A stretch of 64,000 nt of DNA from Bettongia penicillata ogilbyi (lineage: Eukaryota > Chordata > Mammalia > Diprotodontia > Potoroidae). Shown here one piece after another: positions 23,010-44,986 of the stretch (its first letter is position 1; the number at the start of each line of letters is the position of its first letter). Both the position numbers and the translations under genes were made by a program. The notes beneath the pieces are model-generated. The model worked only from the letters and a program-made list of their open reading frames with translations. It ran no database searches and was not told the DNA's origin. The stretch is from the NCBI GenBank assembly GCA_023548195.1, contig JAJHZJ010000014.1, positions 16,158,718-16,222,717 of the forward strand, given 5' to 3'.

Positions 23010-23106
23010 TAGAATGCATTTACTCTTGGGGAAAAGATTTGGCCTCTTTTTTTTCTTACGACGAAGAGACTACTATAGCTTTCAACAATTACCATTGTTT
23101 ACCTTT
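23010..23106 (+). pseudogene. Candidate LRRK2-like exon 4/5 block
   Basis: One frame reads WGKDLAS, a few residues, then YDEETTIAFNNYHCLPF. The human protein has SGKITLLILDEESDIF, then DAMHSFP. Shared anchors in register are GK, DEE, I and the H..P pair, with two small length changes. It lies just upstream of the well-supported exon 6 block, as expected. No clear splice sites were found. Weak alone; position is the main support. Confidence 0.35.
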
Positions 23107-23840
23107 CTTATTAAAGAGCCTACTTCTTAACTGATTATGTAGACATGTTGATACTGATTTAAAGAGAAGCCATCCTCAGGATCACATACAAATCCATGAA
23201 TAATGCTTGCTACATATTCTAATTTTAAATACTAATATGGCAACATCTTTGTTTTTATTGCTCCATTATACTGAATAAACCTCCTTTTGTAAACCAAACT
23301 CTGTGGCGTAAAAACAAAACAAACCCAAAATTTACTTCAAATGAAAAATCAAATGGCTGTATTATAAAGATAATTGTTGACAACAACAAATTTTTTTTAT
23401 GCTTTCTGGGAACCATTAAGAAAAAGTTGGATGACAAACCTCACTTTCTTGCCATTTACTTTGTTGACTAAATGAATGTTTTGGATATCTGAGTTGCCCT
23501 AGAGCAACTCCACTTTTCTTTAAAGTAATTCATTCTAACATGTTCTCTGTTAATTACAGGTAAAATTTATTTAAAGTACCTCTTTGCCTAAATTCTAAAT
23601 CCTTTATTCTGTTAACTCTTTATTTACTAGCATGTTTTCATTTTAGCACAGTAATGCAAATAAATTTGGTCAAATTTTTTTTCATTTTTGTTGGCTTAGT
23701 TTTGTGTATAGAAAAATTTCCGACTAATGGATTAGTTCAGAAACATTTTTATTTTTCTAACTATACAATTCAATATACTGAATAATTCATGTTATTATAT
23801 AATCCTTAAAGTTAATGTTTTCCTTTCAATTTATTTTCAG

Positions 23841-23961
23841 ATCAACTGCCTGCATTTGAGAATAAAGATTGCATGTTTTTGCTGAATACATTAAAAAAGA
23901 TTTAATCATGAAGAAGTGGTTCTTCATGTTCTTCACAGTTTACATTCCCAAGCACTCCTAT
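23841..23961 (+). pseudogene. LRRK2-like exon 6 relic, one-base frameshift
   Basis: An acceptor TTATTTTCAG precedes the block and a strong donor GTAAGT follows at 23962. The first frame reads DQLPAFENKDCMFLLNTLKK (human EQLTEFVENKDYMILLSALTNF). After a one-base shift the next frame reads FNHEEVVLHVLHSLHSQALL (human FKDEEEIVLHVLHCLHSLAI). In the armadillo region of LRRK2 this forms helices. The unshifted frame runs into TAA immediately, so the lesion alone would truncate the product. Both splice sites look usable, which makes intron-containing origin clear. Confidence 0.85.
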
Positions 23962-24149
23962 GTAAGTGTCTACAAGTAAGATTGTCATTACTCACTTGAA
24001 TCACTATAAACTAAAATATTTTCTCCAAGAGCTGTTTTGGACATAATTTATAAATTAGGGATCTAAATGTATTGATGTCAGGAAAAAAATTGACTATTGT
24101 TAATATCAAAATAAGATCAGTTTCTGAAACTCTAAAATTGAATATCACT

Positions 24150-24470
24150 TTTCTTGAAAGAAGACTGTGGACTCATAATGGAAAATGGTATCCACATCCA
24201 GAGAAAGAACTAGAGTCTGCCGGCTGATCAAAGCATACTATTTTCTTTGTTGATGTTGTTATTTTGTTTTTTCTTCCTCGGGGTCTTTCCCTTTTGTTCT
24301 GATTCTTCTTTCACAACATGAATAATGTAGAAATATATTTAATATAATTGTATGTATATAGCCTATATGAGGTTGCATGCTGTCAAAATCTTACAAAATT
24401 AACACTGGAAACTAAAACTAAATAAATAAAATAATAATTTGTGTGTGTGTGTGTGTGTGTATACATATAT
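24150..24470 (+). mobile_element. L1 3' end with (GT)n tail
   Basis: Carries TATCCACATCCAGAGAAAGA, TCTTCTTTCACAACATGAAT and GGTTGCATGCTGTC, the marsupial L1 terminus, then an A-rich tail and a GT repeat at 24438-24462. It sits in an intron position of the relic. Confidence 0.75.
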
Positions 24471-24619
24471 ATAAAAGAAGGCTGTGAAGAGTGAGTGAAT
24501 TTGGCTTATGGACCACAATGTCAAGTTTATCTGATGGGCTGATTTCGTATCTTAGTTCTCAGTTTAGATATCATCACTAGTTTTTGTAAGTTACCATTAA
24601 TATTTTGCATTTTTTGCAG

Positions 24620-24649
24620 CACTTGTACTTAGTGGAGCTATAAGCTCAT
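24620..24649 (+). pseudogene. Candidate LRRK2-like exon 7 start, cut by an LTR
   Basis: After a clean acceptor (TTTTTTGCAG, ending at 24619) the frame that continues from the exon 6 donor reads SLVLSGAIS, comparable to human EVLMSGNVR at the start of exon 7. The LTR at 24650-25211 follows within 30 bases. The DNA beyond the LTR shows only scattered resemblance. The match is short; the correct phase and acceptor are the main support. Confidence 0.35.
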
Positions 24650-25211
24650 TGTTATGGGTTCTTCCTCCATTACTGCTAATCACAACTGAGGGGAACAGGT
24701 ATATTTAGTGAAGACCCCTCGGGGCCCCTTGCGTCACCCTATTTGTCTCACTCAGCCCTGAGAAACCGAACAATAGAGATTCTGTTTTTCTTAAAGTTCT
24801 TTTTGTGGTACAAGATAGTCCTTGACAGAGACTGCATTTACTCACTCCCTTAATCTCCTTTCCTAGACAATTACTCCATGTTATGTGACAGTCCTTGAAC
24901 AGGTGTTGCTCACTCCCATGTCTCTCCCTTTACTCTTATACACTTACTCGTTTTTGCTGGTGTAGATTTTCCGTGGTTAGATTGTACCCTCAAGGCCCAG
25001 CTAATGGGTTAAGAAGAAGGGGATTAGGGGGAGGGTATTGTGGTCAGGGTCTATAAAAACTACCGTGCAGGGCAGACCCTTGCCCTCCTCAGCCATTGCC
25101 GTCTTGAGTGCAGGCAGGAGTGCCCTTCCTCAAAACAGCTGAATAAATATCTTTCCTTTTTACTCCTTTGGTCAAGATTCTGATTTTATCAAGGGAGTCA
25201 TCCCACACACA
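24650..25211 (+). mobile_element. Solo LTR of an endogenous retrovirus
   Basis: The element begins TGTTATGGG and ends CCACACACA (TG...CA termini). It is flanked by CTCAT (24645-24649) and CTCAT (25213-25217), or by a 6-bp duplication with one mismatch. A TATA-like TATAAAAA near 25052 and AATAAA near 25142 are properly spaced for U3-R-U5. No internal viral sequence is attached. Confidence 0.75.
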
Positions 25212-25540
25212 ACTCATAAATACCTTTTTGTGTGTGAAATTCTTGTGTCTTAACATAAATTTTTTATAAGGGTTTAATTGCTTACATTAGAGGTCTCCTT
25301 TGTAGATCTTTTAACATTGTGTATTCAGTTGCAGCATTTTGTCTGTATATCTTGTTATCCTAGCTATTAATACGCAACTGGCTCACCTCCTTTTCCTGTT
25401 TATCATCACTTCTAGTGTCAAAATTAGCACTGATAATCGAGTTTTATTTACATGCATCATTGTCTCTTGGAGTAACCCACAGCTTTTAAATTTTTTTTTT
25501 ATTCTTTAGATATTGTGATATTTCATGATGCATGGACATA

Positions 25541-25580
25541 TATATATTATATATATATATATAATATATATATATATAAA
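25541..25580 (+). repeat. (AT)n tract
   Basis: Imperfect AT dinucleotide run. Confidence 0.85.
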
Positions 25581-25769
25581 ATCAATGGAAAAAATTTGCT
25601 GAAAAGGTGTTTTTTTTCCCACCATAGAAGACCTTGAGATCATTGGCAGTACTAATATATGAATATTTCATATTGTGAAATATTCATATTGTGAACAACA
25701 ATTCATATTGTGATCTATGATTTCATCCATGTGCTTACTCTTTCCATTGAGGAGCAAAACATTCCTTTT

Positions 25770-26285
25770 ATATTCAGTCAATAAGTATTTATTAAGCACC
25801 TACTATGTGCCAGGCACTGTGCTAGACACATAGCAGTAGAGCATAAAGAATGGAATAATTCCTACTTGGAATGAACTTAAATTCTAACAGGGGAGACAAG
25901 TGCACACAGAAAGTTAACAAATATACATATATGCATATAAAACTAGGTAGATAAAAATAGTTGTTAAGTACAAATACATAGTTTGGGAGGGAGATTACTA
26001 GCAGTTAGGGGGATCAGGAAAGTCTTCTTGTAAAAGGGTGTGTCTGTGCTACATCTTAAAGGAAAAGAGAATGGTTTCCATGAAGTAGAGGTAATGATGG
26101 AGAATACATTCCAAGCAGGTGGGATGATCAATGCAAAGGCACTAACATCAGACAAGAATTATTGTGAGTGAGGAACAGAAAGAATGCTTGTTTGGCTAGC
26201 TCACAGTGTATAGATTCAAAGTAAGGATGGAAAGGTAGATTGGGGCCAGGTGATATAGGGTTTTAAAAGCTATACCTTAGTAGAT
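25770..26285 (+). repeat. Ancient MIR/LINE-like repeat
   Basis: Starts with the MIR-like CAATAAGTATTTATTAAGCA and CTACTATGTGCCAGGCACTG, and continues into a longer body (CAAAGGCACTAACATCAGAC). Related bodies seem to recur at 33060-33330 and 40540-41180. Confidence 0.55.
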
Positions 26286-27110
26286 GTCTAATTGGGCTAC
26301 TGAAGCTGAAAAAATTGTTACCTGGTCACTAGTATTCCATTGATAAGTCTTTTCAAAACTAAGTAGGCTATCGCTCAGCCAATAGGGACTGTTGCCAAAT
26401 TTGTACTTAAAGCATGTTTGTAAATGGCAGAACATACCACAGTTTGTGCTTTACTATTAAAATCTTCAAGAATCCAGGGCTACCTCTATTCTATGACATG
26501 GTAAAAGATTAGAACTGTAATAGAAGATATATAGTATTATAGTATAGGTATCCATGTATTCATCTATCCACGCATACATATATGTATACATATGCATATA
26601 TGTGTGTATATCTATACATATGGATATGGCTTCATCAATAAATTCGGGAGATGTGGGATTAAGCATTAATAATTAGGTAGGGAAAAATGGATTTGAGACT
26701 GTAGTAAATCAAAGTAAAATGATGCTTTTAAAAGAAAAGTAAATAAATTTACTTTGGTAAATTGATTAAATTTTATTTTTAAATGAAACTCCATCTCCTT
26801 TCCTTTCCATCTCCCTGCTACCCATCTGTCCTCTCCTCTTTGCTCTTTCCCTTCATAAGTAAGGTCAACTGCAAGTCATGTCATCATTTCTCTGATGGCA
26901 TGGTCTTCTTTGGCAACAAAGGATAGATGAACACAACAATAAGTAAGGTAGATCTTAGTATGTGTAAAATGGATTTTTGTTATTCCTTCTCAAAGTTCAG
27001 TTTCCCAGGATCCATGGTCATAACAATCTGTTTCCCAGCCTCATGACTTGCAAACATCTCTACCACGTTTGTACAGCATTATATAATGATAAATAATTTG
27101 AGTGGGAACA
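26285..27110. other. Intergenic/intronic DNA with small repeats
   Basis: Holds AT/TG-rich tracts at 26530-26630 and an RTE-tail-like segment near 26895-26942 (TTGGCAACAAAGGATAGATG). No relic exon was recognised. Confidence 0.45.
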
Positions 27111-27114
27111 TTTA

Positions 27115-27600
27115 GGGTTGAATGCACAAGCTAGAATGTGTGTGTGTCTTGACTGGCCCCCATCAAGACTTGGAGGGGGAATCTGAGTTTGCCTCAACTG
27201 GCCCCAATTGAGGTTTGAGGGGATTTAGGGGGAATGCATGTGTAGTGATTGTTTCCATTGACCCCATCAAGGAAGGTAGTTTTCCCTCCACCCTTCTCGA
27301 AGACCCCTGCAACAAGGGTGATTAGGGAATGCTATAGGAGTTTGTCCTTCCATTATCAGCAACTGTTGTGAGAAAATTAGATACACCTTTGCAGACACAC
27401 CCTGGTAAATTCTAGGGATTAAAAGGAGTGCAAAGCAGGAACTGCCAATAGAGGAGACCTCTCATAGGTGGAGGAGGGAATTTCTCTTTTGAAGAAAAAC
27501 TACTGAATCAGGAAATATCAAATCTAACTACCTTTCCATCCTTACTTGGAATCTACATACTGTGAGCTAGTCAAACAAGCAACCCTCCTGTGTGCTGTTT
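27115..27600 (+). repeat. LTR-like repeat, relative of 45420-45760
   Basis: Shares CATTGACCCCAT (45 kb copy: AATCGACCCCATTGAGA), GGAATGCTATAGGAG (GGAATGCTGTAGGAG) and CATTATCAGCAACT (CATTATTAGCAACT) with the copy at 45 kb in the same orientation. ERV LTR origin is an inference. Confidence 0.5.
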
Positions 27601-28199
27601 ATTTCTGTCATGCCTTCTTGAGAAAACAAGAAAAACAAAGCTTCCAATTATAAAGAAGCAAAAAAAAAAAAAATTCCCATATTGGCCATGTGAAAAAAGT
27701 TTATCATTCTGAATCCATCACATCTCCATCAGGAGGTAGCCTATATATTTTTGGAAAAAGGTGATTTTTTTTATGAAGTGCTTCTTATAGATTTTCAATC
27801 TTTGCTTTTAGATTTCTCAATCATAGAAAATTAAGTACTTGAAAGTGGAAGAGGATGAATGGTGATAGGGAATGGCCATACTTCTAAAGATTATGAATTA
27901 CTTCCACTGTCATCACATTGATTTTGCTTTCCCTGGGGTATAGTTATGTTGAACTTCTTGTCTAAAGTCTTATGTCCCACCCACATCTAGCATAACTCAA
28001 GAATTAAAATGGTTTGATTTGTAATGCAAAGGTCAAAGAAAATCACTCTTTTAAACATTTATTTTAACCATTTATTCTAACTTTTATTTCTGATTTTTAG
28101 CAGCTACCTCCTCATTTTTTTAGTCATGTTCTCATTTTTAAAAATAGCTCTTGTTAATATTTGTTCTAATCTCTATGTCCTTTTTCTTGGAGGGAAATA

Positions 28200-28480
28200 G
28201 AAGAAACTGTGAAATATCTAACTGAAAAAACAACTTACCTGGAAAATAGATTTAGTAAAGATAATTCAAAAATTGTTGAACTACCTGAAGGCCATGATCA
28301 AAAAAGAATTCAAGGAATTATCAAAGAAATTTCCCCTGATATTCTAGAACCAGGAGGTAAAACAGAAATCAAACAAATCCACTACCACCTCATGAAAGAG
28401 GTTCCAAAATGAAAACTCCCAGGAATATTATACTCAAATTCCAGAATTCCTGAGTCATTGAAGTTTTGTTTCCTTGATAA
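28200..28480 (+). mobile_element. L1 ORF1 fragment
   Basis: An open frame reads TVKYLTEKTTYLENRFSKDN, then VELPEGHDQ, then ISPDILEPGG, followed after a stop by TPRNI-like sequence. This is the coiled-coil/RRM junction of mammalian L1 ORF1. It is not part of the LRRK2 relic. Confidence 0.7.
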
Positions 28481-29900
28481 ATCATCCCATGGACAGGGCT
28501 TTCAATTAATGTTTTGCTCTTTGGACAGAAAAGTATAATACTATCTCTTTTTTATGCACAAGACATTTTGATATTAAAAAAAGCAAAACCAAATAAATCT
28601 TTAAGCATTTACTGCAGAGGCTTTTTTTTTTAAACAAAGGAAGGCAAAGTTTATTTACTGAGTAGAGTCAAACAACTTATTACTGAGATCTGTACATTCT
28701 CTAAATATTTTTTAACAACTTTCATGATGATTTCATGAACCTCATTTAAAACCAGAATATTAAAGAAATTATCTAAAAATGAATTATAAGTTAAATCCTC
28801 ACAGAATTTTATATTTGTCTATAAATTATTACATTTAAATCACAGGATGTTTATTCTTCTACTTTTAAGTTCTTTACAACCATGTAATAGCTTAGCCTGT
28901 TTATATATTTTTTCGTAAATTGTTACATACTGTTACCACTTAATTTTCTTATCTATGCAGTGAAACTGACTGAGCAAGAGTGGTGTTTTTCTTTCACTGC
29001 TTTTTTCATCATCGTAAAAAGTATAGCACCTCATTGTACATAGTACTGATGCAGAATCCTCTTTTAACAATAGCTCACATTTACACAGCACTTGATGGAG
29101 TAAAAAACACTTTACCAGAATTACAAAGGAAGCTCAAGTTTTAGTTCAAAAATTTCTTCTATAGCTTTCCCAAGAAAGAGAGATCCAGACTTCACTGGAA
29201 GATTTATAATCAAAGTGAACCCATAATCACCTATGGGGAGTCCATTTCACTTTTAGATAGCTTTAATTGCCCTCCTGAAACTTTTAATTTTCAATAAGCA
29301 ATCTTTTTTTATTGTTTGTCTATTATTGGAAATCCTGAAATTCAATTATGTAGAGATCAAAAAATAGATAAGAAAAATATTTTAGCAACACTAATGAACA
29401 TATCAACTCTGCCTTGAAGTATATGCAATATTTTATATGAACATGAATATATGAATATTTTATAATATAATATGAATATTTCCATCATTCTATAACCTCT
29501 GAAATGAAGATAAGTGAATTATCAACTATTCACCAGCAATAATTTTGTGTGTATATGTATTTGCTTATTTTCAAAAGAAAGTAATCTTTTTTTAAAAATC
29601 CTGAATAAGATAGGATAGAGAATTGACCTATTTGCCAACCTATTGCAAATCTTACCTACTTAATAGGAAACATATTTCTACTGGACTCTGTCTTCTGAAT
29701 ACAACTGTAGTGTATGAAGTATTGAATCAAGGGTCCTTTGCTGAGAAAACATTTATAATGCAGCAGAACAATTTGCTAAAGAATAAATTATTTTTAATCT
29801 ACATATTTGAATTCCAGGATTTCCAGTAAAAGAACAATTTCAAATAAGAAAAGTAGTTTAACAGGTAAATAATAAAAAAGGCTGCTCATTCAAAATTGAA
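28480..29900. other. AT-rich DNA with no supported gene
   Basis: A splice-acceptor-like TTATCTATGCAG occurs near 28962, but the following frame matches no LRRK2 segment. The 68-codon frame at 29623-29829 is unrecognised and has no splice context. Nothing else stands out. Confidence 0.4.
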
Positions 29901-29939
29901 AATTGCAGAACAAAAAAAAAAAAAGAACAAAATAAAGTA

Positions 29940-31460
29940 AAATAAAGAAAGTGCATTCAGACTCCATATGGAGATGGTTAGCATTTTTCATCATTAGTCC
30001 TTTGGAATTGTCTTGGATATTGCTGAGAAAACATAAGTCATTCACAGCTGATCATCGTATACTATGGCTGTTACTGTGTACAATGTTCACCTAGTCCTGC
30101 TCACTTCATTCTGCATCACTTCATGTAAGTTCAGGTGTTTCTGGAATCATCTTGCTCACTATTTCTTATAACACAATAGTATTCCATCGCAATCGAATAA
30201 CCATAACTTGTTCAACTATTTCTCAGCTGATGGATATCCTCTTAATGAATAATTCTTTGCCACCACAAACAGAGTTGCTGCGGGTCTCCATCCTACTGCA
30301 GCTTGATTTCACAAGCCTCATAAGCAGCAAAAATTGTATATGAGGTATGTGTCTCCTGCAACAGCAGGGACGTGACTGTGAGGTCAAGCATGCCTCCTTA
30401 GGAACCCAGCTGGGCAGAATATCCCCTAAGTAAATTGTATAGAATTCTATATCATGAAGACAGGACAATGGGTCGTAAAAGTTAAATGTTGTAAGGGTTG
30501 TAAAAGTTATACATTGTATATCTGTGTACTCTCCCAGGAAATGTATGTTTGCCTCTCCTTACCTTAAGATGTAACCATGACATCAATTTCTAAGTAAAAG
30601 TGAACTCCTGAAGGGACTCTCGGCAGTCACTTGTTCTCGAGCCTGCCCAGGCTACGCCTTGAACAGATTGGTGTCCATGTGCTCTCCTCTATTCCCACAT
30701 GCGCTTCTGTCCCCTTACAGGTGACCCCTGTTCAAACTCTGCTGCGTGGGACGCAGCAAGCTGCTATAAATATGTTTGTACAAATAGATTGTTCCCTTCT
30801 CTCCTCCCTTTTGTTAGTCTCTTTGGGATACAGACCTAGTAATAGTATTGCTGGGTCAAAGGGCATCATTTTATAGCCTTTATATAGTTTTTAATAGTTC
30901 CAAATTGCTACCTAGACTGCTTAGAATAGTTTACAACTCCACCAACAATATATTAGTGTTCCAATTTTCCCACTCCCCCTCCAACATTTATCCTTTTCCT
31001 TTTCTGTCATATTAGCCAGTTTGATAGGTATGAGGTGGTACCTTGGGGTTTTTTTAATTTGCATTTCGCTAATCATTAGTGGTTTAGAGTATTTTTTTCA
31101 TATGAATACAGATAGCTTTGATTTCTTTGACCGAAAATTGCCTGTTCATATCCTTTGATCATATATTAATTGGGAAATTACTTGTATTCTTATAAATTTA
31201 ACCTTTTATATATTTATATTTGGTATGTTATATGTAATATATTCTTATATGCACTTATTACATATGTATATATTGTTTCCATATGTATATTCTTGTTCAT
31301 TTGACTACATATTTGAAAAATGAGGCCTTTATCACAGATACTCAATGCAAAAAAATTTTCTGCATTTCTTCTAATCTTGTCTGCATTGGTTTTGTTTGAG
31401 CAAAAAAAAATTCAATTTAATATAATCAAAATTATCCATTTTACATGTGATGCAAGCTTA
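29940..31460 (-). mobile_element. L1 3' region, minus orientation, split by an LTR
   Basis: Contains antisense L1 end sequence (TGTTCAACTATTTCTCAGCT, CTATAAATATGTTTGTACAA, TTGGGATACAGACCTAGTAA). The element is interrupted at 30279-30758. Confidence 0.75.
30279..30758. mobile_element. LTR-like insertion in the L1 with 6-bp target duplication
   Basis: It begins TGCGGGTC and ends GACGCAGCA. AGTTGC (30273-30278) and AGCTGC (30759-30764) flank it, a 6-bp duplication with one mismatch. Removing the segment restores the L1 order (CCACAAA..GAG(T/C)TGC, then TATAAATATG). Orientation is not certain. Confidence 0.55.
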
Positions 31461-32505
31461 AATTTGTTTAATCCAAAAAATCTATCATTTGTATTACTTG
31501 GAAAGTATAATAAATACATTTGCAGCTGTAGTCAGGTTTGTCTTTTTATTCTCAAAACAAATTACTATCTTTATTAAGCTTTGATTTTTTTTTATTTTGG
31601 TGGTATTTGCAAAAACTTTGCATTTCATTCCAAAGATCCAGGATCAGCAGTTACTTTATTAGGCTGATACTTCAGTACCATTAGAATAAACATGTAGATG
31701 GAAGCAAACTGTAATAAAATAGCTACTTGTTTTTGCTTGCTTGCTTCCTTCTTACAAAATTATAGAATCTCAAAAATATAAGGAAACTCTGAGATCATGT
31801 AGTCTAGGATAACATACCTGACCAGTGAAATATTGGAATTTCTGCCCTGCATCTAATTCACCTCCTCTTGAGGTTCCAAAGTGATCTTCCTAAAGCTCAG
31901 GTCTGATAATGCCACACACACCACCCACTTCTCAAAAAACTCTAATGTAAAATCCTCTATATAACTTTAAAAACTCTTTACAACTAGGGTCCTTAGTCTC
32001 ACTTCTGCAGATGAGATATTTAACTCAGTCTCCGTGTTTGCAACTGAATCTTTAATTCACAGGTTATGTAGTCTCTGCAAAACTCTACAATCATGAGGTA
32101 ATTGGAGTGAAACAGACAAGTAATATCTCAGTATTATAAAATAGTTTTGACTTTGTGGAACTCCTTGAAAGTGTCTCAAGGATGTTGAGGTGTCTCCGGA
32201 CCACATTTGAGAGCTGATCTAGTTCAATTTCCTCATTTTAGGATATGGGGGCAAAAAAGACTCAGACAGATGATTTGCCAAGGTCACAGATGTTAACTGT
32301 TATATTTATTCCTATTCTGTAATTTGAAGAAAATAAAAGATTACTCTAAACTGAAGTTAACATAGGATTAACTGGAATATTCACATTTTGTGCAATAGTA
32401 GCTGTATGACGAAATGTAATATCTAAAATTTTAAGTATATTTACCAAATTCTTTTCATTTTGCTTTTTGTTCTTTATTTCATCTTTGTGTATGTTGCATT
32501 TTCAG
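31460..32505. other. Intron-like DNA before the exon 17 relic
   Basis: Includes an L2-like segment around 31850-32000 (GTGATCTTCCTAAAGCTCAG; compare GTGATTTTCCTTAAGCACAG at 42352) and a MIR-type piece near 32230-32290. No exon 8-16 block was recognised. Confidence 0.45.
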
Positions 32506-32637
32506 AGATTTCAAACAACTTTGGCATTTCTTGAATTATCACTTTGCTTTGCAAAACTGCTGCTAAACCATCATTCATATGACTCACTAAAATTTTCTGT
32601 TAGAAAACCAAGTATTTCACTGAACAAACATTTCTTC
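32506..32637 (+). pseudogene. LRRK2-like exon 17 relic
   Basis: The acceptor is GCATTTTCAG at 32496-32505. The frame reads RFQTTLAFLELSLCFAKLLL, then NHHSYDSLKF, matching human GFQTILAILKLSASFSKLLV and HHSFDLVIF. Downstream residues I and K stay in register (human SSNIMEQKD). At the expected exon end the sequence is TTCTTC followed by TTACT, so the GT donor appears lost. The frame stays open to the expected boundary (44 codons; human about 43). The next stop is only four codons further. Confidence 0.85.
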
Positions 32638-32695
32638 TTACTCATGTGTTAAAGGTCATGGATTCATCTGTTCCCCAATAGCCATTTCTTTTTAG

Positions 32696-32866
32696 TTCCA
32701 GAATCTTTGTTGCAAATTCTTTGCCAAAATAACTTGTGATGATGATATTAAAAATGTACTACTGGCAAGAGACCATGAGGAAAACAATAGCATTATGGCT
32801 GAATGCCTCCTCCTTTTGCAAACTGATGTTAGTAATGTGACTGGGAAAACTTCTTTGGTCTGCCAG
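32696..32866 (+). pseudogene. LRRK2-like exon 18 relic, still open with both splice sites
   Basis: This is the best-preserved block. It has acceptor TTCTTTTTAG at 32695, 57 open codons in phase 0 and donor GTAAAT at 32867. The peptide opens FQNLCCKFFAK, continues KNVLLARDHEENNSIMAECL and ends TSLVCQ. Human exon 18 has FLNLCCKCFAK, KNVMLERACDQNNSIMVECL and SSLICQ, also 57 codons, with about 32 identical by eye. In LRRK2 this lies at the armadillo/ankyrin transition (human residues near 687-743). No indel is needed across the whole exon. Alone it suggests either slow decay or recent loss, but its neighbours are broken. Confidence 0.93.
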
Positions 32867-33059
32867 GTAAATATTCAAATGGGTACAATTATTTTAAAAT
32901 AAGAACAGAAGTGGTGAGAAAGGAGAACACTCCAGTTATGGGGCACTGCCAGTGAAAAAAGAATGAGATAGAGTGCCATTTATGAAGAAAAGTAAGCAAG
33001 GAAAGTCTACCTGAACTGCATTGTTCATGGATGGAAATGATGACGAATAAGGCTGTAAA

Positions 33060-33335
33060 AGTAGATTGGGCTAAGATCATTGAGAGCTTTAAATAAAAGC
33101 CAAAAAAGGAAGAGTTAATATTTAGCGTTGGAGGTAATAACTGTTGTTTATTGAGTAAAATATAGAGATTTGATCATACTTGCCCTTTCTGAAAATCATT
33201 TTGGTAGCTGCTGGAAGTTTGAATTGTAGCGAGAAGATATTGGAGGCAGGGAAACCAATTAGGGTCTATTGTGGTAGTCTAGGCAAAGGGATGATGAGAG
33301 CCAGAGATAGGTGACAGTGAGCAAAGAGAGGGAAA
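33060..33335 (+). repeat. Ancient LINE-like repeat
   Basis: Contains GGTAGTCTAGGCAAAGGGAT-type sequence and appears to belong to the same family as 25770-26285 and 40540-41180. Confidence 0.4.
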
Positions 33336-33344
33336 AAGATAAGG

Positions 33345-34653: not shown

Positions 34654-35376
34654 AAAATTTGTCAAGTTTAAACTTTATTAGGTGCTTAAACGACATATCA
34701 CATTGGATTTTACATTTTAAGTTTAGAGAAATATAATAATCTTCTATATGTACAATAACTTACGTGTGCCCTGATTTTTGGCTTAGAAAATATGATCACC
34801 ATTCCTAGAGACTGATAGGATATTAGACCTGGAAAACCTTATTGTTATTTTATTCCAGGTAATATTGTTTAAAGTGATTCCTGACAGTATTGTTTAAATA
34901 TGCCTCAAATACCATCCAATATTATCTTTTTCTATTACTTTTTTTCTTGACTTGAAACTATTTTTCATGCCTATCATTGCCTATTTTCCTCCCTCATTTT
35001 ATTATATGATTGTAATGAGCATAAGAACTTTTTGTTTCATATTTATATTCCTGTTGCTTAGCATTGTGTACTAGTAACTAGGTAGTGAAAGCTTAATAAA
35101 TGCTTGTTGGATTGCATGAGATTGACTTCCACCCCTTCTCATTTAAGGATTAGGAAACTCAGTTGTTTCTATTTATCAGTATTTTCAGTTTTTCTCCTCC
35201 ATTTTTTTCATCTAAAAAAATTACAGTAGTGTTTGATACATTTTAAGTCATTATTGATAACATGTAAATTATTGTACATGTAGGAGATTATTATATTTCT
35301 GTAAACTTTAAGATGTAAAGTCTAATGTGATATGTCATTTAAGCACCTAATAAGGTTTAAACTTGATAAATTTTTA
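34654..35376. mobile_element. Long inverted repeat, possible non-autonomous DNA transposon
   Basis: The left arm 34654-34767 is the reverse complement of the right arm 35260-35376 at high similarity. Shared stretches include TTATTAGGTGCTTAAA, GACATATCACATT and AGAAATATAATAATCT. Arms of about 115 bp flank a loop of roughly 490 bp. No transposase frame is visible in the loop. The element lies in an intron position of the relic. Confidence 0.65.
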
Positions 35377-35379
35377 AAA

Positions 35380-36110
35380 ATCAGGTTAGAATGAATAAAC
35401 TCATTTAAATACTACTTTTATCTGTCATTCACAAGTTGTATTTCTGTACAAAAATTATATTAAAAATTGAAATAGATTTTAGTGAAATATATATGTATAT
35501 TTGCTAAGCTGTTAATTTAAAAACTTAATTTTCATCACACTCAAGGATACTATTAGAGAGCTAATAAGTTTCATTGAGTCCATACTCTACACATCTAATA
35601 AAAGTGTTGGTTTTAAAGAATAAATTATAGGAAAATCTACCTTCCTGTTTCTAACTTTTTCTTCTTTTTTCCGTCCAGTCCTTCAAGGCTCAAGTTAAGT
35701 CCTCCTCTGTTTTCTCAGACTGTTCTAGCTCACAATGATTTCCTTTGGACTTAGAGCCTCTACTTATTTTTTCTCCCTAATTAGATTGGGAGTAGCAATA
35801 AGAGTGTTAGTACAGCTTATTCTTTTTTAAAATTTCTCCATAGTACCGAGCCTTGCAAACAATAGGTGTTCATTAGGTAAATGTTGGTTAATTGATTAAA
35901 AAAATAGCATTTTAGCAATTAAAAAATAATACAATAAAATCTTTAAGTTCTGAGGTGATAATGACTTAAGAAATTGTTAGTGTGAGAGTGAGATGACTTG
36001 GCTTCCTCAGTGAGATTGTTGTTTGAGGCTTTGATTCAGTATGAATGGTGCATGTCCAGGAATGAATTTGAGGCATAGGGAAGATACGTCATCAAGAGGA
36101 AGGAAAAGTT
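35380..36110. other. AT-rich DNA
   Basis: Contains an L2-like fragment at about 35690-35890 (TCAAGGCTCAAGTTAAGTCC and GTTCATTAGGTAAATGTTGG). No exon recognised. Confidence 0.4.
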
Positions 36111-36119
36111 TTGAGTGAA

Positions 36120-36600
36120 ATCATAAGACTGCTGCGGCCAGCGCGGTTCAGCAGGTCGGGGGTGGTTGCGGGCTCACAGAGTGAGGATGAAAAGACAGGC
36201 GGAACACTACAGTCTGAACAAACTGAGTTTATTCTGGATATACTGAGCCAATAATTCAGGGAATCGGGATGCTTAATGGTAAAAAAACAAACAAACAAAC
36301 AAACAAAACATAAAGGTAGTGATTGAAGCATGAAACAGAGCAGATGGTGATGAGTAGAAAGGGAAGCTTCAAGACCTCTTTATCGGAATGTTATCCTGTA
36401 CAGCAGGAGCCCTGATTCCTGGAACTTCAACACCCGAATTCAAGGACATGCACCTGAGAACAATATATCACTTAACTTCTCAAACCAGCTACTCTTCTCC
36501 CTTGGAGGAGGGGAACTCTTGATAAGGGGCTCTTTCAAACCCCTCAAGGTTCTCTACAAAGACCTGTTGAGAGAAATTAATATTATATTATTACATTAAT
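36120..36600 (-). repeat. LTR-like element, minus orientation
   Basis: GC-richer than its surroundings. GAGTTTATTCTGG near 36222 is an antisense AATAAA context, and repeat-like C-rich ends follow. The boundaries are approximate. Confidence 0.4.
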
Positions 36601-36925
36601 AGCTAATTATTAATTTGTGACCCACCCTTTTCCTTCTATTTCTGTTAGGATCCAATTCCTGAAAAGGTCAGTCAGTCTCTCTGAAGGTCAAGGTTAAGTG
36701 ATGAGATAGCATCCAAAGCACAAGCTTCTTTAAGGACCTCACCCACCTGGGGAAGCTAATTTCTGCTTAGAATATAAGCTTGCAGCCTTTGCCTCCTGTT
36801 CTTGATCCTTTCATTAACTGTTTAGGGCAACTCAGTTTATGAAGGAGAAAAGTAACCAGAGATGTCCAGATGGAAATGGCTTCCCCGGCCCACCTGCCTT
36901 GATGCCTTGAGAGGGATGAGCCAGT

Positions 36926-36927
36926 TT

Positions 36928-36990
<63 letters not shown>

Positions 36991-37043
36991 CTCTTTCTCT
37001 CTTTCTCTCTTTCTCTCTTTCTCTCTTTCTCTCTTTCTCTCTT

Positions 37044-37099
<56 letters not shown>

Positions 37100-37315
37100 T
37101 CTTTCTCTTCCTTCCTTCCTTCCTTTCTTTCTCTTTCTTCCTTCCTTCCTTCCTTTCTCTCTTTCTCTCTCTCTCCCTCTCTTTCTCTCCCTCTCTCCCT
37201 CCTCCCCTCTCTCTCCTCCCCTCTCTTCCTCTTTCTCTCTCTTTCTTCCTTTCTCTTTTTTTCTTTCCCTTCCTTCATCCCTCCCTTCCTTCCATTCTCT
37301 TTTCCTTTCTTTCTC
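36926..37315 (+). repeat. (CTTT)n / pyrimidine microsatellite, about 390 bp
   Basis: A perfect CTTT run grades into TCTCTT, CTTCC and CCTCT variants. The long KE/RE-rich and FLSLF-type open frames on both strands are translations of this tract and not genes. Confidence 0.95.
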
Positions 37316-37364
37316 TACCCATATGTTCTCATGTTTTATGATACAGTGCTACCAGAGGGGAAAC

Positions 37365-38400
37365 GAGCGAATAACAGAAACCCAGGAGCGCATAAACATC
37401 CAGTTTATCCGTCAAGGTTAGCCCAGGCCTCTAGTACCCAGCTCCAGTCTGGTGAGGAAAGGGCAGGCTAGACCTCCGGCAGTAAGAGCCTGGCAGAAGG
37501 CAGAGGGGTCCTGGCTGGGACTGACTGCTGCTGGAGGTAGAAGGGGTCGGGAGGAGGCGGAGGTGAGTCTATGGAAGGACCGCTGACCAGAAGACCGCCC
37601 CACCCCGACACCCCCAACCCCATCGCTCAGTGGCCTCTCACTGTGAAGTGCAAGCTCGCCCTAGCAGGGTCCCACCCAATGCTCGCAGTTCAGTCGCCGG
37701 GAGAGCTCCCTTTGCCCCAAAGGCAGGCACTTCTCAGCGAGTAGGGGTTGGTTGGGTTGGGGGAACACAAAGGAATGGAGGGGAAAAGGCGATCAGAGGG
37801 AATCCAGCCCCAGCTGGCTAGGGAGGCACGGGGGACTGGAGGAGCCCACACCCTCTGGGAGAGGTCCACGGCACAGAAAGGTTCATCCTCGAAGTAGTTG
37901 CTCATTTCTCTGTTTTCAGGAGTTTTGTGCGCTCGGGCTGACACCGGGGGGAGTGGGAGATGGGGTGTCAGAGTCGATAGAAGAATGCTGGAGGGCCGGC
38001 AGTCAGAGCCAGTTCTCTGCAGGAACAGCTGAAGACTTCTGGTCCACCTTCTCATTAAACGTCCACCAATGAGGGCTGAATTTCCATTGTCGGAGGAGTT
38101 CCCTTACAGAAGGTACAGATCTGATTTAAGGGTTTTCAGAGTCCCCCTTTTTCTTTGGTTACCGAGAAACCACTGATCAGGAATTTATTATTAGCCAACC
38201 TAATTAATAAATTGATTATGAATTACCCAAGAAACTCTGTCTCTTGTGGGTTTTATTTGATGGTGGAGGTAGCAGGTCGCACTTCACTGGCTTTGTGGAG
38301 AGGTAGGTTTGAGTACCCAGAGATGAGATGAGAGGCCTCTGAGGTTGCCAATTGGTAAACGGTTTTAAATGAATGCTAGACTGAAAAACTACGATTTAAT
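37365..38400 (-). repeat. GC-rich LTR-like/ERV segment
   Basis: Distinctly GC-richer block with ATAAACATCCAGTTTATCC near 37391 and TTTATTTGATGG near 38256. Its open frames (up to 121 codons) show no domain. ERV origin is inferred from composition and the adjoining LTR-like element. Confidence 0.35.
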
Positions 38401-38489
38401 ATGACAGAAGTATATTAGGAAATAGAGTAGTAGATTTAGGTAGGACTCAAGATTTTGAAAATTTTTGGTCATACATTCTGAGTCTTTAA

Positions 38490-39262
38490 AAAAAATTTAA
38501 AAACCAAACATGACAAAACAGTAAGATAATAAATGTTGAAGAAGATGTGGGAGAGTTGGAACACTAATTCATTGCTGGTGGAACTGTGAGCTGATCCAAC
38601 CATTCTGGAGAGCAATTTTATAGCCCAAATGTGCATATTGACCCAGCAATACTGCTTCTAGGGCTGTATCCAAAAGAGATCATAAAAATGAGAAAAGGTC
38701 CCACATCCACAAAAATATTTATAGCAGAGAAATCAAGGGAATGCCCATCGACTGGGGAATGGCTGAACAAGTTATGGTATATCAATGTAATGCAATACTA
38801 TTGTGCTGTAAGAAATGATGAACAGGCGGACTTCAGAAAAACCTAGAAAGACTTATATGAACTGATGCTGAGTGACATGACCAAAACAGCCACAGTGTGT
38901 GATGACTGACCTTCGTAGATTTACTCTTCTCAGTGATGCAAGAACCTAAAACAATTCCAAAGGACTCATGATGGAAAATTCCATCGACACCCAGAGAGAG
39001 AACTAAGGAGTTGGAGTGCAGAGTGGAGCAGACTATTTTCTTTTTTGTTTTGTTTAGTTTTTCTTTCTCATGGTTTCTCCCATTCATTATAATTCTGCTA
39101 TGCAACATGACTAATGTGAAAAATGTGTTTAATAGGAATGTATGTGTAGAGCCCATATCAGATTGCATGCCATCTTGGCGAGGCAGAGGGGAGGAAGATT
39201 TAAAATTTGTGGAAATGATTGTTATAACTAAAAATAAATAAATTGAAAACTGTAAAAAAAAA
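38490..39262 (+). mobile_element. L1 3' end, plus orientation
   Basis: Contains ATTGCTGGTGGAACTGTGAG, TATTGACCCAGCAATACTGC, AATGGCTGAACAAGTTATGG and TCCAAAGGACTCATGATGGA, then an A-rich tail. The 160-codon antisense frame over it is a shadow of the L1 end. Confidence 0.85.
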
Positions 39263-39424
39263 GTAGTTATATAATTCTGAGTCCTTCCAGTTCCAGAACT
39301 GATGAGAGTTAACAACTGTATAACTTTAGCATTAGGTGCTCCCTTTTTCTTTGCTCAATTTTACTATATATAGTTTGTAAATGCTTTTTTTTAAAGTCAG
39401 TAGAAGTTGCTCCTGTGTAGACAG

Positions 39425-39650
39425 AAATTTTTGCTTTTAGAAAATAGCACTTCTTTCACAACATGAATACTATGGAGATATAATTGACATGATTACACAT
39501 GTATAATCTATATCAAACTGCTTACCATGGGTGGGGGAGTGGTAAAGGAGGAGAAGAGAAAATTTGGAACTCAAAATTTAAAAAAAAAATGTTAAAAATT
39601 ATCTTTACATATAATTGGGGAAAAAATAAAATTTAAAAAAGAGAGAAAAG
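39425..39650 (+). mobile_element. Short L1 3' terminus
   Basis: CTTCTTTCACAACATGAATA and AACTGCTTACCATGGG are followed by an AATTTGGAACTCAAAA-type end. Confidence 0.7.
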
Positions 39651-39727
39651 ACCCAGACTTTCTCATTGGTGCCTTTATTTTCTAACAGGAAAAATTTGTT
39701 GAAGAATTGTTATTTTCTAAAAAGGAA

Positions 39728-39792
39728 GCCAGTTTTAATAACAAAATTTGGTCATAAAGAGATTTATTTTCTTCAGATGATTCTGTCTATGA
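39728..39792 (+). pseudogene. Candidate LRRK2-like exon 22 block
   Basis: One frame reads ASFNNKIWS, a stop, then RDLFSSDDSV. Human LRRK2 has FDHEDLLKRKRKILSSDDSL just before exon 23. SSDDS and an upstream Arg are shared. The block lies between the exon 18 and exon 23 relics as expected. A donor-like GTATTT follows 39790. The same codons can also be laid against exon 21, so the assignment is tentative. Confidence 0.35.
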
Positions 39793-40112
39793 GTATTTAT
39801 ACTAATAACCATAAGCAGTCACACATTTAGGTTAAAATCAAGTAATCTATCAAGTATCTGATGTTCAAAATCACTAAAATTATGTGCTGCCAATTTTATT
39901 TTACATAGAAATCTTGAGATTTTGCTTGTCTAAAAGTCCTGTATGTAGTAGAAACGTAAAGTACACTTCTGGATGAAAACCCAATATTACTTTTTCTAAG
40001 TAAAAGAGTACCAGATTTTAAGAAGTTCATCCATATTTTTATTTTTTAACAAAGTGCAAGTTTTAGATGAAATGTGTTTTCTGTCTGTGTTACACATTTT
40101 ATTTTGCAGAAG

Positions 40113-40326
40113 GATCTTCAAAACTCCACTTCCATTTGAGATGATCGGACAACTTTTTTCTCTAACTCCAGAAAGAGTATAGAGTCATTATTATCTTTCA
40201 GCAAATGAACTAGAGGATATTGATGGTATAAAGAAGAAATGCCTTTCAAGTGATCACTTAACAAGTCTTGCGAAACTGGAGCATCACCAGAATGTAATGA
40301 TAAGAGTTCCACAACAGCTCTGTGAA
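40113..40326 (+). pseudogene. LRRK2-like exon 23 relic (start of the LRR domain), two stops, donor lost
   Basis: After TTTTGCAGAAG the frame reads SSKLHFHLR, stop, SDNFFSLTPERV, stop, then YYLSANELEDIDGIKKKC and KLEHHQNVMIRVPQQLCE. Human has SSKLQSHMR.SDSISSLASER, then LSANELRDIDALSQKC and KLELHQNALTSFPQQLCE. About 23 of the last 40 residues agree. Two in-frame stops (TGA, TAG) and a one-codon loss are present. At the exon end GAA is followed by ATAATG where GT is expected, so the donor is lost. The codon phase at the acceptor (x|GA = Arg) matches human SLR-SSKL. In LRRK2 this begins the leucine-rich repeats. Confidence 0.92.
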
Positions 40327-40539
40327 ATAATGTATTATCTTTTTAAAAGAAAATGTCTATTTGCATAATTTTTTCATTAATTCAAGTCATTTTGTGGTTG
40401 TCTTGAAGGTAAATTTTCTTTATGATTATAAACTTGGTAATCTCAACCTTCCACTTTACTAGAACATGCATTATTACATTCCAGGGTGTGATGTTTTTTA
40501 AAATGTGTGTGATTTATTTTTTTTAAAGTGAGAAAGGAG

Positions 40540-41180
40540 AAGGGCATTCCAGGTATAGAGAACAATGTGAACATAGATTAGGGGCTGGAGAAATACAAAC
40601 TGAATAGAACAGGTCTCAGTATAATTTAACTGAATCATTGAATGTATGCAGGGGAATAATTGAGATCAAGATATTAAAAAGGAAAGATTATGCCAGATTA
40701 TCAGGAGTTTGGGGAGGGAATATTTGAATGTCAGGCCATTGAATTTAACTGGAGAGCCATTGAGAAGTGTGACATGAACAGATTTTCATATGTGTGTGTT
40801 ACAGAGAGAGAGAGACAAAATTATTCTGGACTTACCAAGACTTGATATGAGAGGTGACTGAGAGGGAAGAGTCAAAGCTAACCCTGTTTATTCAGTCAGT
40901 CAGTCTATAAGCATTTATTAATTATTTACTATGTGCCAAACTCCCAGTGTAGGAGTTTGGATGAATTGTGATGTCAGTGACTGAACAAGTCAGAAGGAAG
41001 AGGTTAAGCATGGCTTGAGACATGTTGCATTTGAAATACCAGTTGGAGATTCAATTAGGTGTGTTGTTTTATGAGCGACAAGTCTAGAGCTGGGAGGTTC
41101 TAGGTGATGCCTAGAGTTACAACTTTGGAAGTCATTTGCATAGAGATGATAATTAAAGTTTAGAAGGAAATGAGATCGCC
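40540..41180 (+). repeat. Ancient LINE/MIR-like repeat with inserted MIR
   Basis: Contains a MIR-like TATAAGCATTTATTAATTAT and TACTATGTGCCAAAC at 40906-40945 inside a body resembling 25770-26285. Confidence 0.45.
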
Positions 41181-41183
41181 AAA

Positions 41184-41186
<3 letters not shown>

Positions 41187-41237
<51 letters not shown>
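41187..41237 (+). repeat. (AT)n microsatellite
   Basis: About 25 AT units without interruption. Confidence 0.95.
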
Positions 41238-41240
<3 letters not shown>

Positions 41241-41657
41241 GAGAGAGATAATAATAAGAATAGATCCTTGAGGAAAACCCACATTAAGGAATGAGGAAGA
41301 CTGAGGAGTCAGAGTAAATCTGATTAGAGAAGTAGGAAGAGAATTAGAAAAGTATGCTGTGGATGCTTTCTAAATCTAAGAAAATAGAGAATATTTTAAT
41401 TTGCATTACATGTATTTGTGTATATGACCTATCTTTTCCTTCTGGTTTATAAACTTCTTGAGGGCAAGGACTTTGTATTTCTTCCAGTCTATCATAGTAT
41501 ATTATACTTAGTAAGCATTTTACATATTTGCTTACACATATTTTAATTACCTTTTATTTTTTCCCTATAGTCTGTTCTAGTTTATCTGAAGTTCTAAGCT
41601 TTGAATTACATTTTCTTGGTCACATAATTTTAAAACTTTGAATTATTTTCTTTTCGG

Positions 41658-41909
41658 AATTTAAAATATTTGACACATTTGAACTTCCACAGTAAGAAAA
41701 CCTTATCAATTCTTGCCTATTTGTTGAAAATGAATTGCATTGCCAATCTCATTATCTCCCATAATGATATTGGACCTTCTATAATTGTGGATCTAATTCT
41801 CATATGTCCAACCTTGGAACCACTCAATTTCTCATTCAATCAACCATCCTCTGTCCCTGAATTTCTTGCAGAATATCATAGAAAATCTAGAATAGTTCCT
41901 TCTGAAAAG
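41658..41909 (+). pseudogene. LRRK2-like exon 24 relic (LRR domain)
   Basis: The frame opens LKYLTHLNFHSKK and continues YLLKMNCIANLIISHNDIGP, CPTLEPLNFSFN and SVPE. Human has LKSLTHLDLHSNK, YLLKMSCIANLDVSRNDIGP, CPTLKQFNLSYN and FVPE; about 40 of 67 residues agree. Near the end a one-base shift moves the match to another frame (ENLE, TAG stop, FLLK against human EKLEQLILE). The donor AAAAG|GTAAGA is intact. At the acceptor, TTTTCGG stands where CAG is expected, so it appears mutated. The block is 252 bp; the human exon is about 258. The open frame continues past the donor only by chance. Confidence 0.93.
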
Positions 41910-42319
41910 GTAAGAATGATGTGGAAGTTTATAGTGTATAAATTGAGTTGGGATTATCATCAGAGCTGGAAAGACCTTGGAGGTTATGTAGTACAACCTC
42001 GTATTTCATTTTATTGATGAGACAACTGAGACATAAATGACTTACCCACTATCATTATAGCTAGTAATTAACAGAACTGGAAACTAAACAAATCCTTGAC
42101 TTGATCCATGTTCCTCTCATGAAATCTATTAAATAGGTAGTTTGGATTACTATATGAAGATATCCCACTGTCCTCTCATGAAGTCTATTAAATATGTTTT
42201 TATTGCTTCATCAGAAAGAATTGATATATATAAGAAAAATCAGTATTGCATAGGCAGGAAACCTATTCATAATTATCTAGTATTATAGTTTGTTCTAGTA
42301 CTATAGTTCATCACTGTAG

Positions 42320-42935
42320 TTCACTCCAGTTCATCCTCTACATAACTGCCAAAGTGATTTTCCTTAAGCACAGGTCTAATCATATATTTCCCTTATTCAG
42401 TAAATTCTGGTGCTCCCTTACCACTACCATTATCTCTAGAATATAAGATCCTCTGTTTGACTTTAAAGCCTTTCACAACTTAACCCAAACATGCTGTTCC
42501 AACTTTATTGAACATTATTCCACTTCATGCCCACTAAATTTCAACCAAAGTGTATTTCTTACCTCATTCAGGTATTCATTTTCTGTCTCTGCCTTTCTTT
42601 GAATCCTATGTCTGGAATTCTCCATTTTCATTCTCCAACTCTTAGAATCTCTAGTTTTTTTTAAAGCTCAACATAAGCTTTGTTTTCAACATGAAACCTT
42701 TCCTGGTTGCCTTGCCTCCTCTCTAAAATTATCTTATATCTGTTATGTGTGTTTCAGATATGTCTTTATTTGTATATATTTGTTTTTCCCCATCTAACTT
42801 ATAAACTCCTTATAAGCTAGATCTGTTTTACTTTTAGTCAAGCACTCCATGTTTTTTCATCTTTGTTCCTCAGCTGATTAGGACACTGCCAATCATAGGT
42901 GCCTAATAAATTCAACTCAATGAACATTACATGTT
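42320..42935 (-). repeat. L2-like ancient LINE segment
   Basis: Order CAAAGTGATTTTCCTTAAGC, TTTGACTTTAAAGCCTTTCA, GAAACCTTTCCTGGTTGCC and CCTAATAAATTCAACTCAAT matches the tail of L2/L3-type repeats. Smaller pieces occur at 31850 and 35690. Confidence 0.55.
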
Positions 42936-43359
42936 ATGTATTATAGGCATTAGGGGTATGATGATTAAAAAAAAGACACATACTTTGCCTTCAAGGAGTT
43001 GACATCCAAGTGATGTATGGGGATAAAATAAGTGGATTCAGAGTTGGATATAAAACCTTTTAGATCTTCTGCCTGCATTTTATGGATGAGGAAACAGAGA
43101 CCTGTTTACAACAAAGAGGTTGTAATTTTTCCAAGATCATTCAAGTGATAACAGAAATAATATTCAAATGCATGTCCTCCAGTTCTAAGCCCTTCATTCT
43201 TTCCTTTGCATGACTTTTTACAAAAATCACCATAATATAAATGTAGCAGTCACTCACCTACTACACATTTTATAATGTAATAAGTATAAAAGTCAAATAA
43301 GTTGGCATGAGAGATTTGAAGTTAGAAGTATTCCTTGTAGTTAAGATGATTAGAGAAGA

Positions 43360-43600
43360 CTTCGGGGTAGCTAGGGGCTGGAGTAAGAAATACCTGAGTT
43401 AATATCTGGCCTCAGACACCTAGCAGCTATGGGATCCTAGACAAGTCACTATTTGCCTCAATTTCCTTATCTGTAAAATGGGGATAATAATAGCACCTAC
43501 CTTGAAGAATTGCGGTGAGGATCAAATGAAACAAAATGTAAATAGCACATTGCCTAACATAGTGTTATATAGTGAACAATATAAATATTATTATTATCAT
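43360..43600 (+). repeat. Marsupial SINE / MIR composite
   Basis: GGTAGCTAGGGGCTGGAGTA, TATCTGGCCTCAGACACCTA, TTATCTGTAAAATGGGGATA and GTGAGGATCAAATGAAACAA appear in canonical order. Confidence 0.85.
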
Positions 43601-43882
43601 GGAAGAAGTGATACCTGAAGGAAAATAAATTTTAATATTCTATCTTTTAAGAAAAAGATAATTATAAAAATCATCTTATTTTTTGATTTGCTTTCTAACA
43701 GCATTCTGATTGAAGAAATGAGCTGATTCTATAAACTGCCTTGATTTAATATTGTCAAAAGTTTTTCTAGTAAATCAATATCTCTTAATGATCTTTGAAA
43801 CGTGTGCTTTTTACTTGTTGCTCTTACTAAGCTGATAATTGTATTAAGTAATTTGATACTTATTTTCTCCTTTTTTTATTAG

Positions 43883-43990
43883 AAACAAAATATCAGAAAT
43901 ATATTCACCTTTGTGCTTGGAGGAACACCAATGAAATCACAGAGCCATAATATGTTAAAAAGAGTTTAGACCACGGTATTTAGGAAACCA
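43883..43990 (+). pseudogene. LRRK2-like exon 25 relic
   Basis: The acceptor CTTTTTTTATTAG precedes a frame reading NKISEIYSPLCLEE, matching human NKISGICSPLRLKE across the exon 24/25 junction. A TGA stop follows five codons later and similarity then fades. A possible SHNMLK in another frame may correspond to human NHISSL. No donor is visible, and the exon 26 relic begins within tens of bases, so the exon end and the following intron seem deleted. Confidence 0.75.
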
Positions 43991-43999
43991 TTTATTTTT

Positions 44000-44212
44000 T
44001 TTTAAAGCACATGAAATAGGACTTATGGTAGGAAAAGGAAGAATCCTAGGACTGTTAGCTCTTCCTCAGCTCAACCAGTTGTGTCTTAGCCATTCTCAGA
44101 ATCAAAATTACACAGGTTAAACTCTGGCATACATTCTAGGAATCCCAAATATCAAGCCAACTATTTCTTTTTAAAATGACTTAATTCATTCTCATGATCA
44201 ATTTATCCAGTC
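44000..44212 (+). pseudogene. LRRK2-like exon 26 relic
   Basis: One frame reads HEIGLM, then GLLALPQLNQLCLSHSQNQ, a stop, then TLAYI and later LIHSHDQF. Human has HLRSLDM, LPG...SLNLRELLFSHNQIS, EKAYL and LHLSHNKL. Key anchors (SH.Q, AY exactly ten residues later, and L..SH) keep register over most of the block, with a two-codon loss after LN and an insertion before the last anchor. A possible GTCAGA donor lies at 44209. Weaker than exons 23-24, but consistent in order. Confidence 0.6.
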
Positions 44213-44489
44213 AGATCTTGCTTCAGTGCCTCATTGGCATGGAAGTGACCTTCTGTTTTTGACGCCTATGTCAATGGAACCATAAGTTTGATAAGATTTG
44301 TCAGAGCTGGAAATGTATCAGATATGAACTGATGTTACATTGCTATCACGATTCTCACTGTACTTGTGACCTTAGATAAGTTACTTAATATTTAACCTAT
44401 GAAACCCTATTTTGTCTTCCTTTTTTTTTTTTTTTGGTAAGTTGGTTTCTCTCTTTTCTAAAATTGAGTTTTTAAAGAGGTAAAATGGC

Positions 44490-44665
44490 ATAGTAGGAAG
44501 AAAAGTTAGACTTAAAGAAATAACACTGGATTTGGAGTCTGATGATGTTTTTGCCCTTCCTGTGAAGTTGGGTAAGTGACTTAACCTTTTGGGGCTTCGC
44601 TTTCCTTATCTGCATAATGAGGGGTTAGATTAGGTGGTCTTTAAGTTCTCTTTCAGTCATTTGTC
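44490..44665 (+). repeat. SINE fragment
   Basis: TGGCATAGTAGGAAG, GGGTAAGTGACTTAACCTTT and TTAGATTAGGTGGTCTTTAA are MIR/tRNA-SINE-type segments between the exon 26 and exon 30 relics. Confidence 0.6.
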
Positions 44666-44853
44666 CTGTGATCAATTGAAATCTCTAATTAAGTTGCAAT
44701 ATTCCATGAACCACATGTTGTGGTCTGTGTCAGTGCAGAGAGACTATTCATACCACTGAAATCACATCCTGTCAAATAGCAAGCACTATATCGGAAATGC
44801 ATAATTGCCTTTAGTTTACAGGAATGGAAAACATAGATGACTTTTTCATTTAG

Positions 44854-44986
44854 GACAAGAAGAGTTCTACAGCACTCACCCTCGCTTCATGACACAGTGA
44901 GCATTATATCTTGCTCTATATCATATGATCTTAGCAAAGGACACACCAAAGTAGATGATGTGAAGCCATGGCTCTTCAACATAATG
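44854..44986 (+). pseudogene. LRRK2-like exon 30 relic (ROC GTPase domain)
   Basis: Acceptor TTTTTCATTTAG and donor ATG|GTGACA are both intact. The first frame reads GQEEFYSTHPRFMTQ, TGA, ALYLALY; human has GREEFYSTHPHFMTQRALYLAVY. A five-base gain (CATAT beside TATCATATG) then shifts the frame, and it continues YDLSKGHTKVDDVKPWLFNI, matching human YDLSKGQAEVDAMKPWLFNI. The block is 133 bp; the human exon, which ends just before Arg1441, is about 128. In LRRK2 this covers the switch II side of the GTPase. The TGA replaces an Arg codon and could come from CGA by CpG decay (inferred). This is among the strongest matches in the window. Confidence 0.95.

Follow-up and report, generated by a model that had tools for sequence, protein, structure and literature searches.

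An intron-bearing, decayed partial duplicate of LRRK2 upstream of TMX1 in Bettongia penicillata ogilbyi

A 64,000-nucleotide stretch of the genome of the marsupial Bettongia penicillata ogilbyi (hereafter the window; C152:16158718-16222717, within a 3.39-Gb assembly) contains a broken copy of LRRK2, the Parkinson's disease gene. We find that this copy very probably arose within the lineage by partial segmental duplication of the animal's own LRRK2 and has decayed neutrally, and that it is not an ancient third LRRK gene. It occupies 35 kb, is collinear, introns included, with 125 kb of the LRRK2 locus on another contig (C704), and retains 12 recognizable exons: 4, 5, 6, 8, 15, 17, 18, 22, 23, 24, part of 25, and 30 (Table 1). 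The source gene, the order of the copied pieces and the state of their reading frames can all be read directly from the alignments.

The resemblance to LRRK2 is above chance, as it should be for an unprocessed duplicated pseudogene and its parent. The tblastn search with human LRRK2 that a sequence-only reading of this DNA had proposed gave significant matches in LRRK2 order, exon-sized blocks with E values from 1.7e-18 (best) to 2.3e-9, compared with a lowest E of 0.31 among 21 controls, for which the protein was shuffled 20 times and reversed once. The LRRK2-like blocks described in that reading are therefore real, and all five of the LRRK2 peptide anchors that it quoted were located in the window. 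The weakest block accepted, exon 6, matches human LRRK2 at E 0.004 and the genome's own LRRK2 at 3.5e-8 (both tblastn). Residues 1-2527 of the human query align with residues 1-2527 of the LRRK2 chains in the PDB, and the query is identical to them over the compared alignment, to about residue 957. In a phmmer search of the PDB, the open reading frame (ORF) at 41634-42014 retrieved LRRK2 first (E 4.9e-20) and next an unrelated protein at E 0.082, with LRRK1 absent among the 32 sequences at E<=10. The ORF at 32696-32869 likewise matches LRRK2 in the PDB (E 5.5e-14) and the Pfam family ANK_LRRK2 (E 2.9e-16). An Rfam scan of the window returned zero families at the gathering score.

The parent gene is retained in the genome on a separate contig, as in the case of an unprocessed pseudogene. 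With 29 of 29 candidates scored, a 127-residue exon-24 query matched at E<=0.001 in two genomic places only, one in the window and the other on C704. For a 1.3-kb piece around exon 30, the one other strong genomic match is again LRRK2 on C704, and the remaining 38 of 40 scored matches (60 candidates) cover a short repeat only. A gene model built from 200 kb of the C704 locus comprises 33 exons (the last one cut) and 1607 amino acids with no stop, and is identical to human LRRK2 at 1206 of 1603 residues; later exon matches reach human residue 2470, the C-terminal exons being known as search matches only. Elsewhere, C204:2842682-2844163 holds a 1388-residue open frame, probably MFHAS1, with similarity to the LRR-ROC portion of LRRK2.

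To delimit the copied segment, the C704 locus was compared with the window by blastn, which yielded 359 matches and a best plus-strand chain of 26 links, from window position 2468 to 60181. Eight of the 26 links were dropped as multi-copy repeats (at 2468, 2552, 10360, 29900, 30759, 39046, 55304 and 59963) and three minus-strand matches were added, giving 21 blocks for extent and intron divergence, each 13-25% diverged from the own LRRK2; codon and exon counts drew on 18 of these blocks and the splice dinucleotide count on 10. Exons 4, 5, 6, 17, 18, 22, 23, 24, part of 25, and 30 lie on the plus strand in order. Eight of them (6, 17, 18, 22, 23, 24, part of 25, and 30) fall in LRRK2 order within 23010-44986, the range in which the sequence-only reading had placed the relic; that range stands for its eight exons, but the segment extends about 10.7 kb beyond it on the left and to near 47,554 on the right. 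Exons 8 and 15 are found in minus-strand orientation, each together with adjoining intron sequence, at positions that fit the plus-strand order. At 28455-29879, accordingly, two adjacent LRRK2 pieces are inverted in place with the source order retained, an arrangement that requires two small inversions or template switching. Apart from these two inverted pieces, the copied introns run collinear with those of the parent, as expected of an unprocessed pseudogene.

Exons 1-3, 7, 9-14, 16, 19-21, 26-29 and 31 onwards were not found in the copy, so that its interior lacks 15 of the exons between 4 and 30; at the junction 43922/43927 alone, 33.4 kb of source, from exon 25 to intron 29, is skipped. 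On the promoter side, the absence of exons 1-3 applies to the window, the DNA to its left not having been searched for them. On the other side, tblastn of the window at E<=10 gave no human-LRRK2 match past residue 1438, nothing of exon 31 onward (COR, kinase, WD40) was found in the 16 kb between the copy and the right end of the window, and the 40 kb that follow yielded no match at E<=1, by which we rejected the idea that the C-terminal half lies there. Two repeat-like features were seen along the segment: 27211-27364 and 45426-45577 are 72% alike and by eye resemble remnants of one long terminal repeat (LTR) family, and 36926-37265 is a long CT-rich microsatellite in a GC-richer stretch with no collinear counterpart in the LRRK2 locus.

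Table 1. Features of the LRRK2 copy and its neighbour, in window coordinates
Feature	Position	Strand	Remarks
Whole duplicated segment, LRRK2 intron 3 to intron 30	12310..47554	+	Collinear blastn blocks; source C704:5084970-5209932
Exon 4 copy	13695..13781	+	Two 1-bp deletions, one stop; AG and GT retained
Exon 5 copy	14787..14924	+	One stop (TGG to TAG); donor GT to AT
Exon 6 copy	23835..23965	+	One frameshift, three 3-bp deletions; AG gone at aligned acceptor position
Inverted piece, intron 7 - exon 8 - intron 8	28455..29127 (exon 8 at 28659-28772)	-	
Inverted piece, intron 14 - exon 15 - intron 15	29346..29879	-	
Exon 15 copy	29686-29830	-	One stop; both splice sites altered
Exon 17 copy	32506..32630	+	2-bp insertion, 9-bp deletion, one stop; donor deleted
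Exon 18 copy, ankyrin region	32696..32866	+	Open frame; splice sites retained
Exon 22 copy	39689..39788	+	Several indels, terminal stop; donor lost
Exon 23 copy	40113..40326	+	Three frameshifting indels, one stop; donor GT to AT
Exon 24 copy, LRR	41658..41909	+	Acceptor AG to GG, donor GT retained; one 1-bp insertion
Exon 25 copy, first 40 bp only	43883..43922	+	Then jump to intron 29 (43927)
Exon 30 copy, ROC	44854..44986	+	5-bp insertion, one stop; AG and GT retained
TMX1 exon 1, neighbour outside the copy	8519..8671	-	Head to head with the copy

Exons and introns of the copy are equally diverged from the own LRRK2. Non-repeat intron sequence, defined by a limited test as matching the 200-kb LRRK2 locus once and 80 kb of other DNA not at all, differs at 1,961 of 10,592 bases (18.5%; Jukes-Cantor (JC) distance 0.213), and the synonymous divergence of the exons (Ks) is 0.212; this agreement indicates that exons and introns were copied together. 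With repeats included, the Kimura two-parameter (K2P) distance of the introns is 0.226 over 16,233 bases. The non-synonymous divergence (Ka) is 0.135, and the resulting Ka/Ks of 0.64 is near the value to be expected if one copy is dead and the other constrained. Codon positions 1, 2 and 3 differ about equally, at 75/537, 67/536 and 78/537 sites (14.0, 12.5 and 14.5%), the pattern expected when an unconstrained copy is compared with a constrained gene.

The reading frame is disabled. After exclusion of codons touched by gaps, 520 codons were used for the stop and Ks counts and 529 in a neutral simulation; the copy contains 8 stops in the 520, one of them, in LRRK2's frame, close to the 3' end of exon 24, and 12 of its 18 exon gaps shift the frame. 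The simulation, run at K 0.113 (half the intron distance), predicts 6.5 stops (95% range 2-12), compared with the 8 observed. GT/AG sites, which had been noted at several blocks, persist at 15 of 23 testable splice dinucleotides, and the other eight are changed or deleted. Taken together, the stops, frameshifting gaps, codon positions and simulation describe a pseudogene with a disabled frame and no constraint, and the stops, frameshifts and lost splice sites rule out a functional gene. Of the ROC-COR-kinase core of a functional LRRK kinase, one broken ROC exon (exon 30) is all that was found in the window and the next 40 kb. Since exons 1-3 were not found in the window, nor exon 31 onward in either stretch, the copy was most likely never able to make a working kinase; it has probably been non-functional since its origin and, judged from its sequence, appears to be without present function.

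The sequence-only reading had left two origins side by side, a DNA-level duplicate and an ancient third LRRK paralogue. The first is supported by introns collinear with the own LRRK2; the second, under which a third LRRK gene (a two-round (2R) ohnologue or older) decayed upstream of TMX1, we reject as highly improbable. That the copy bears introns, lies on a different contig from LRRK2 and shares only about 59% amino-acid identity with human LRRK2 over 518 aligned codons could speak for great age. Over the same number of codons, however, it is about 75% identical to the own LRRK2, and where human and own LRRK2 differ, it carries the state of the own gene at 98 sites and the human state at 16 (p 1.5e-15); at the remaining codons alignable to human, all three agree (289), the copy alone differs (85) or all three differ (30). 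Judged by this site sharing, the copy does not branch outside human and own LRRK2, as an ancient paralogue would, and the duplication is therefore later than the split from placentals. A Ks of 0.21 likewise speaks against this origin, and introns that align over kilobases are unexpected for a paralogue of vertebrate age; only if gene conversion had affected most of the 35 kb could the idea be rescued. In the part of a published LRRK phylogeny available to us, LRRK3 and LRRK4 are described from invertebrates, and vertebrates are named for LRRK1 and LRRK2 (PMC10643122). The LRRK3 and LRRK4 clades would count as 'third' LRRK genes of the kind proposed, whereas the copy falls with LRRK2.

Two further histories start from the own LRRK2. 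A processed, retrotransposed pseudogene would account for nothing beyond the occurrence of LRRK2 exons at a second place; introns that are present and collinear rule it out, the splice dinucleotides retained at 15 of 23 sites argue against it, and its probability is negligible. A fuller LRRK2 copy, functional for a time and then dead with both ends lost, seems quite improbable. The blurred left edge would suit it, and the loss of 15 internal exons means that the ends could have gone too, but near-equal divergence at the three codon positions, the Ka/Ks and a neutral stop count leave little room for a functional phase, and neither the part of the window to the right of the copy nor the 40 kb after it gave a C-terminal exon. 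Several observations also weigh against a duplicate that was partial from birth. Its outer edges rest on judgement after the eight repeat links were dropped, the left edge falls at or inside a tail like that of a short interspersed element (SINE) plus a repeat, and, with the search for exons 1-3 confined to the window, the ends may have been lost after birth. Repeat-class sequence makes up 6,599 of 17,191 aligned intron bases and has a higher divergence (21.3%), and the block 17531-18346 is without any non-repeat base. Additional LRRK2 fragments may exist elsewhere in the genome: in the whole-genome search with full-length LRRK2, 19 of 296 candidates were scored, and the copy itself was not listed.

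The partial duplicate of the own LRRK2 very probably arose as follows. After the lineage split from placental mammals, about 125 kb of DNA from LRRK2 intron 3 to intron 30 was duplicated at the DNA level and inserted just upstream of TMX1; large deletions then reduced it to 35 kb, two small pieces were inverted in place, and the copy has decayed neutrally ever since. Its partial state at birth, the manner of copying and the age are inferred. Assumed neutral rates of 1.5-2.2e-9 per site per year give a rough age of about 48-71 million years. If the split is assumed at 160 million years and the event is placed on the human-marsupial path by the fraction 16/(98+16), the age is, again roughly, about 45 million years. 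On these assumed clocks, the duplication would be about 45-71 million years old, and it probably dates from some tens of millions of years ago.

As had been proposed, the copy lies upstream of TMX1; the two are direct neighbours in head-to-head orientation, and further TMX1 exons continue on C152 down to 16.114 Mb. A TRIM9-TMX1 interval around the copy, by contrast, is not what this genome shows. TRIM9 lies at C152:23,056,487-23,212,589, on the same contig and strand as TMX1 and about 6.9 Mb from it (TMX1 taken at C152:16,167,388). In human, TRIM9 is a near neighbour of TMX1. The separation seen here would be explained by a single inversion that had one of its breakpoints close to the LRRK2 copy; reversing some 7 Mb would give back a head-to-head pair like the human one. 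It is conceivable, if rather unlikely, that the LRRK2 piece marks this chromosomal breakpoint, having been inserted by break repair during the inversion that separated TRIM9 from TMX1, with the flipped exons 8 and 15 and the skipped stretches as template-switching scars of one event. The 40 kb upstream of TRIM9 contains one LRRK2 match, at E 0.24, the rest being repeats that also occur in the LRRK2 locus and in the window, and we rejected this region as the site of the remaining half of the copy.

In kind, the copy is a new example of an ordinary unprocessed pseudogene, real but ordinary. Like others that derive from partial segmental duplication, it bears introns, its exons and introns are of the same age, it has decayed neutrally, and it shows stops, frameshifts, lost splice sites and partial gene content; it differs from typical cases in its heavy compaction (125 kb to 35 kb) and in two small in-place inversions that keep the source order. 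With the own LRRK2 it shares exon order, intron content and most of its aligned residues, but its frame is broken and many exons were not found in it. Among the papers listed in literature searches on LRRK2, LRRK paralogues and marsupial duplications, titles and abstract openings contain no mention of the copy. Were it taken for a third LRRK gene that has been lost, the history of the LRRK family would have to be rewritten; the data exclude that reading. In this species, the copy could draw mis-mapped reads or primers from LRRK2 exons, and it provides a datable neutral comparator for LRRK2.

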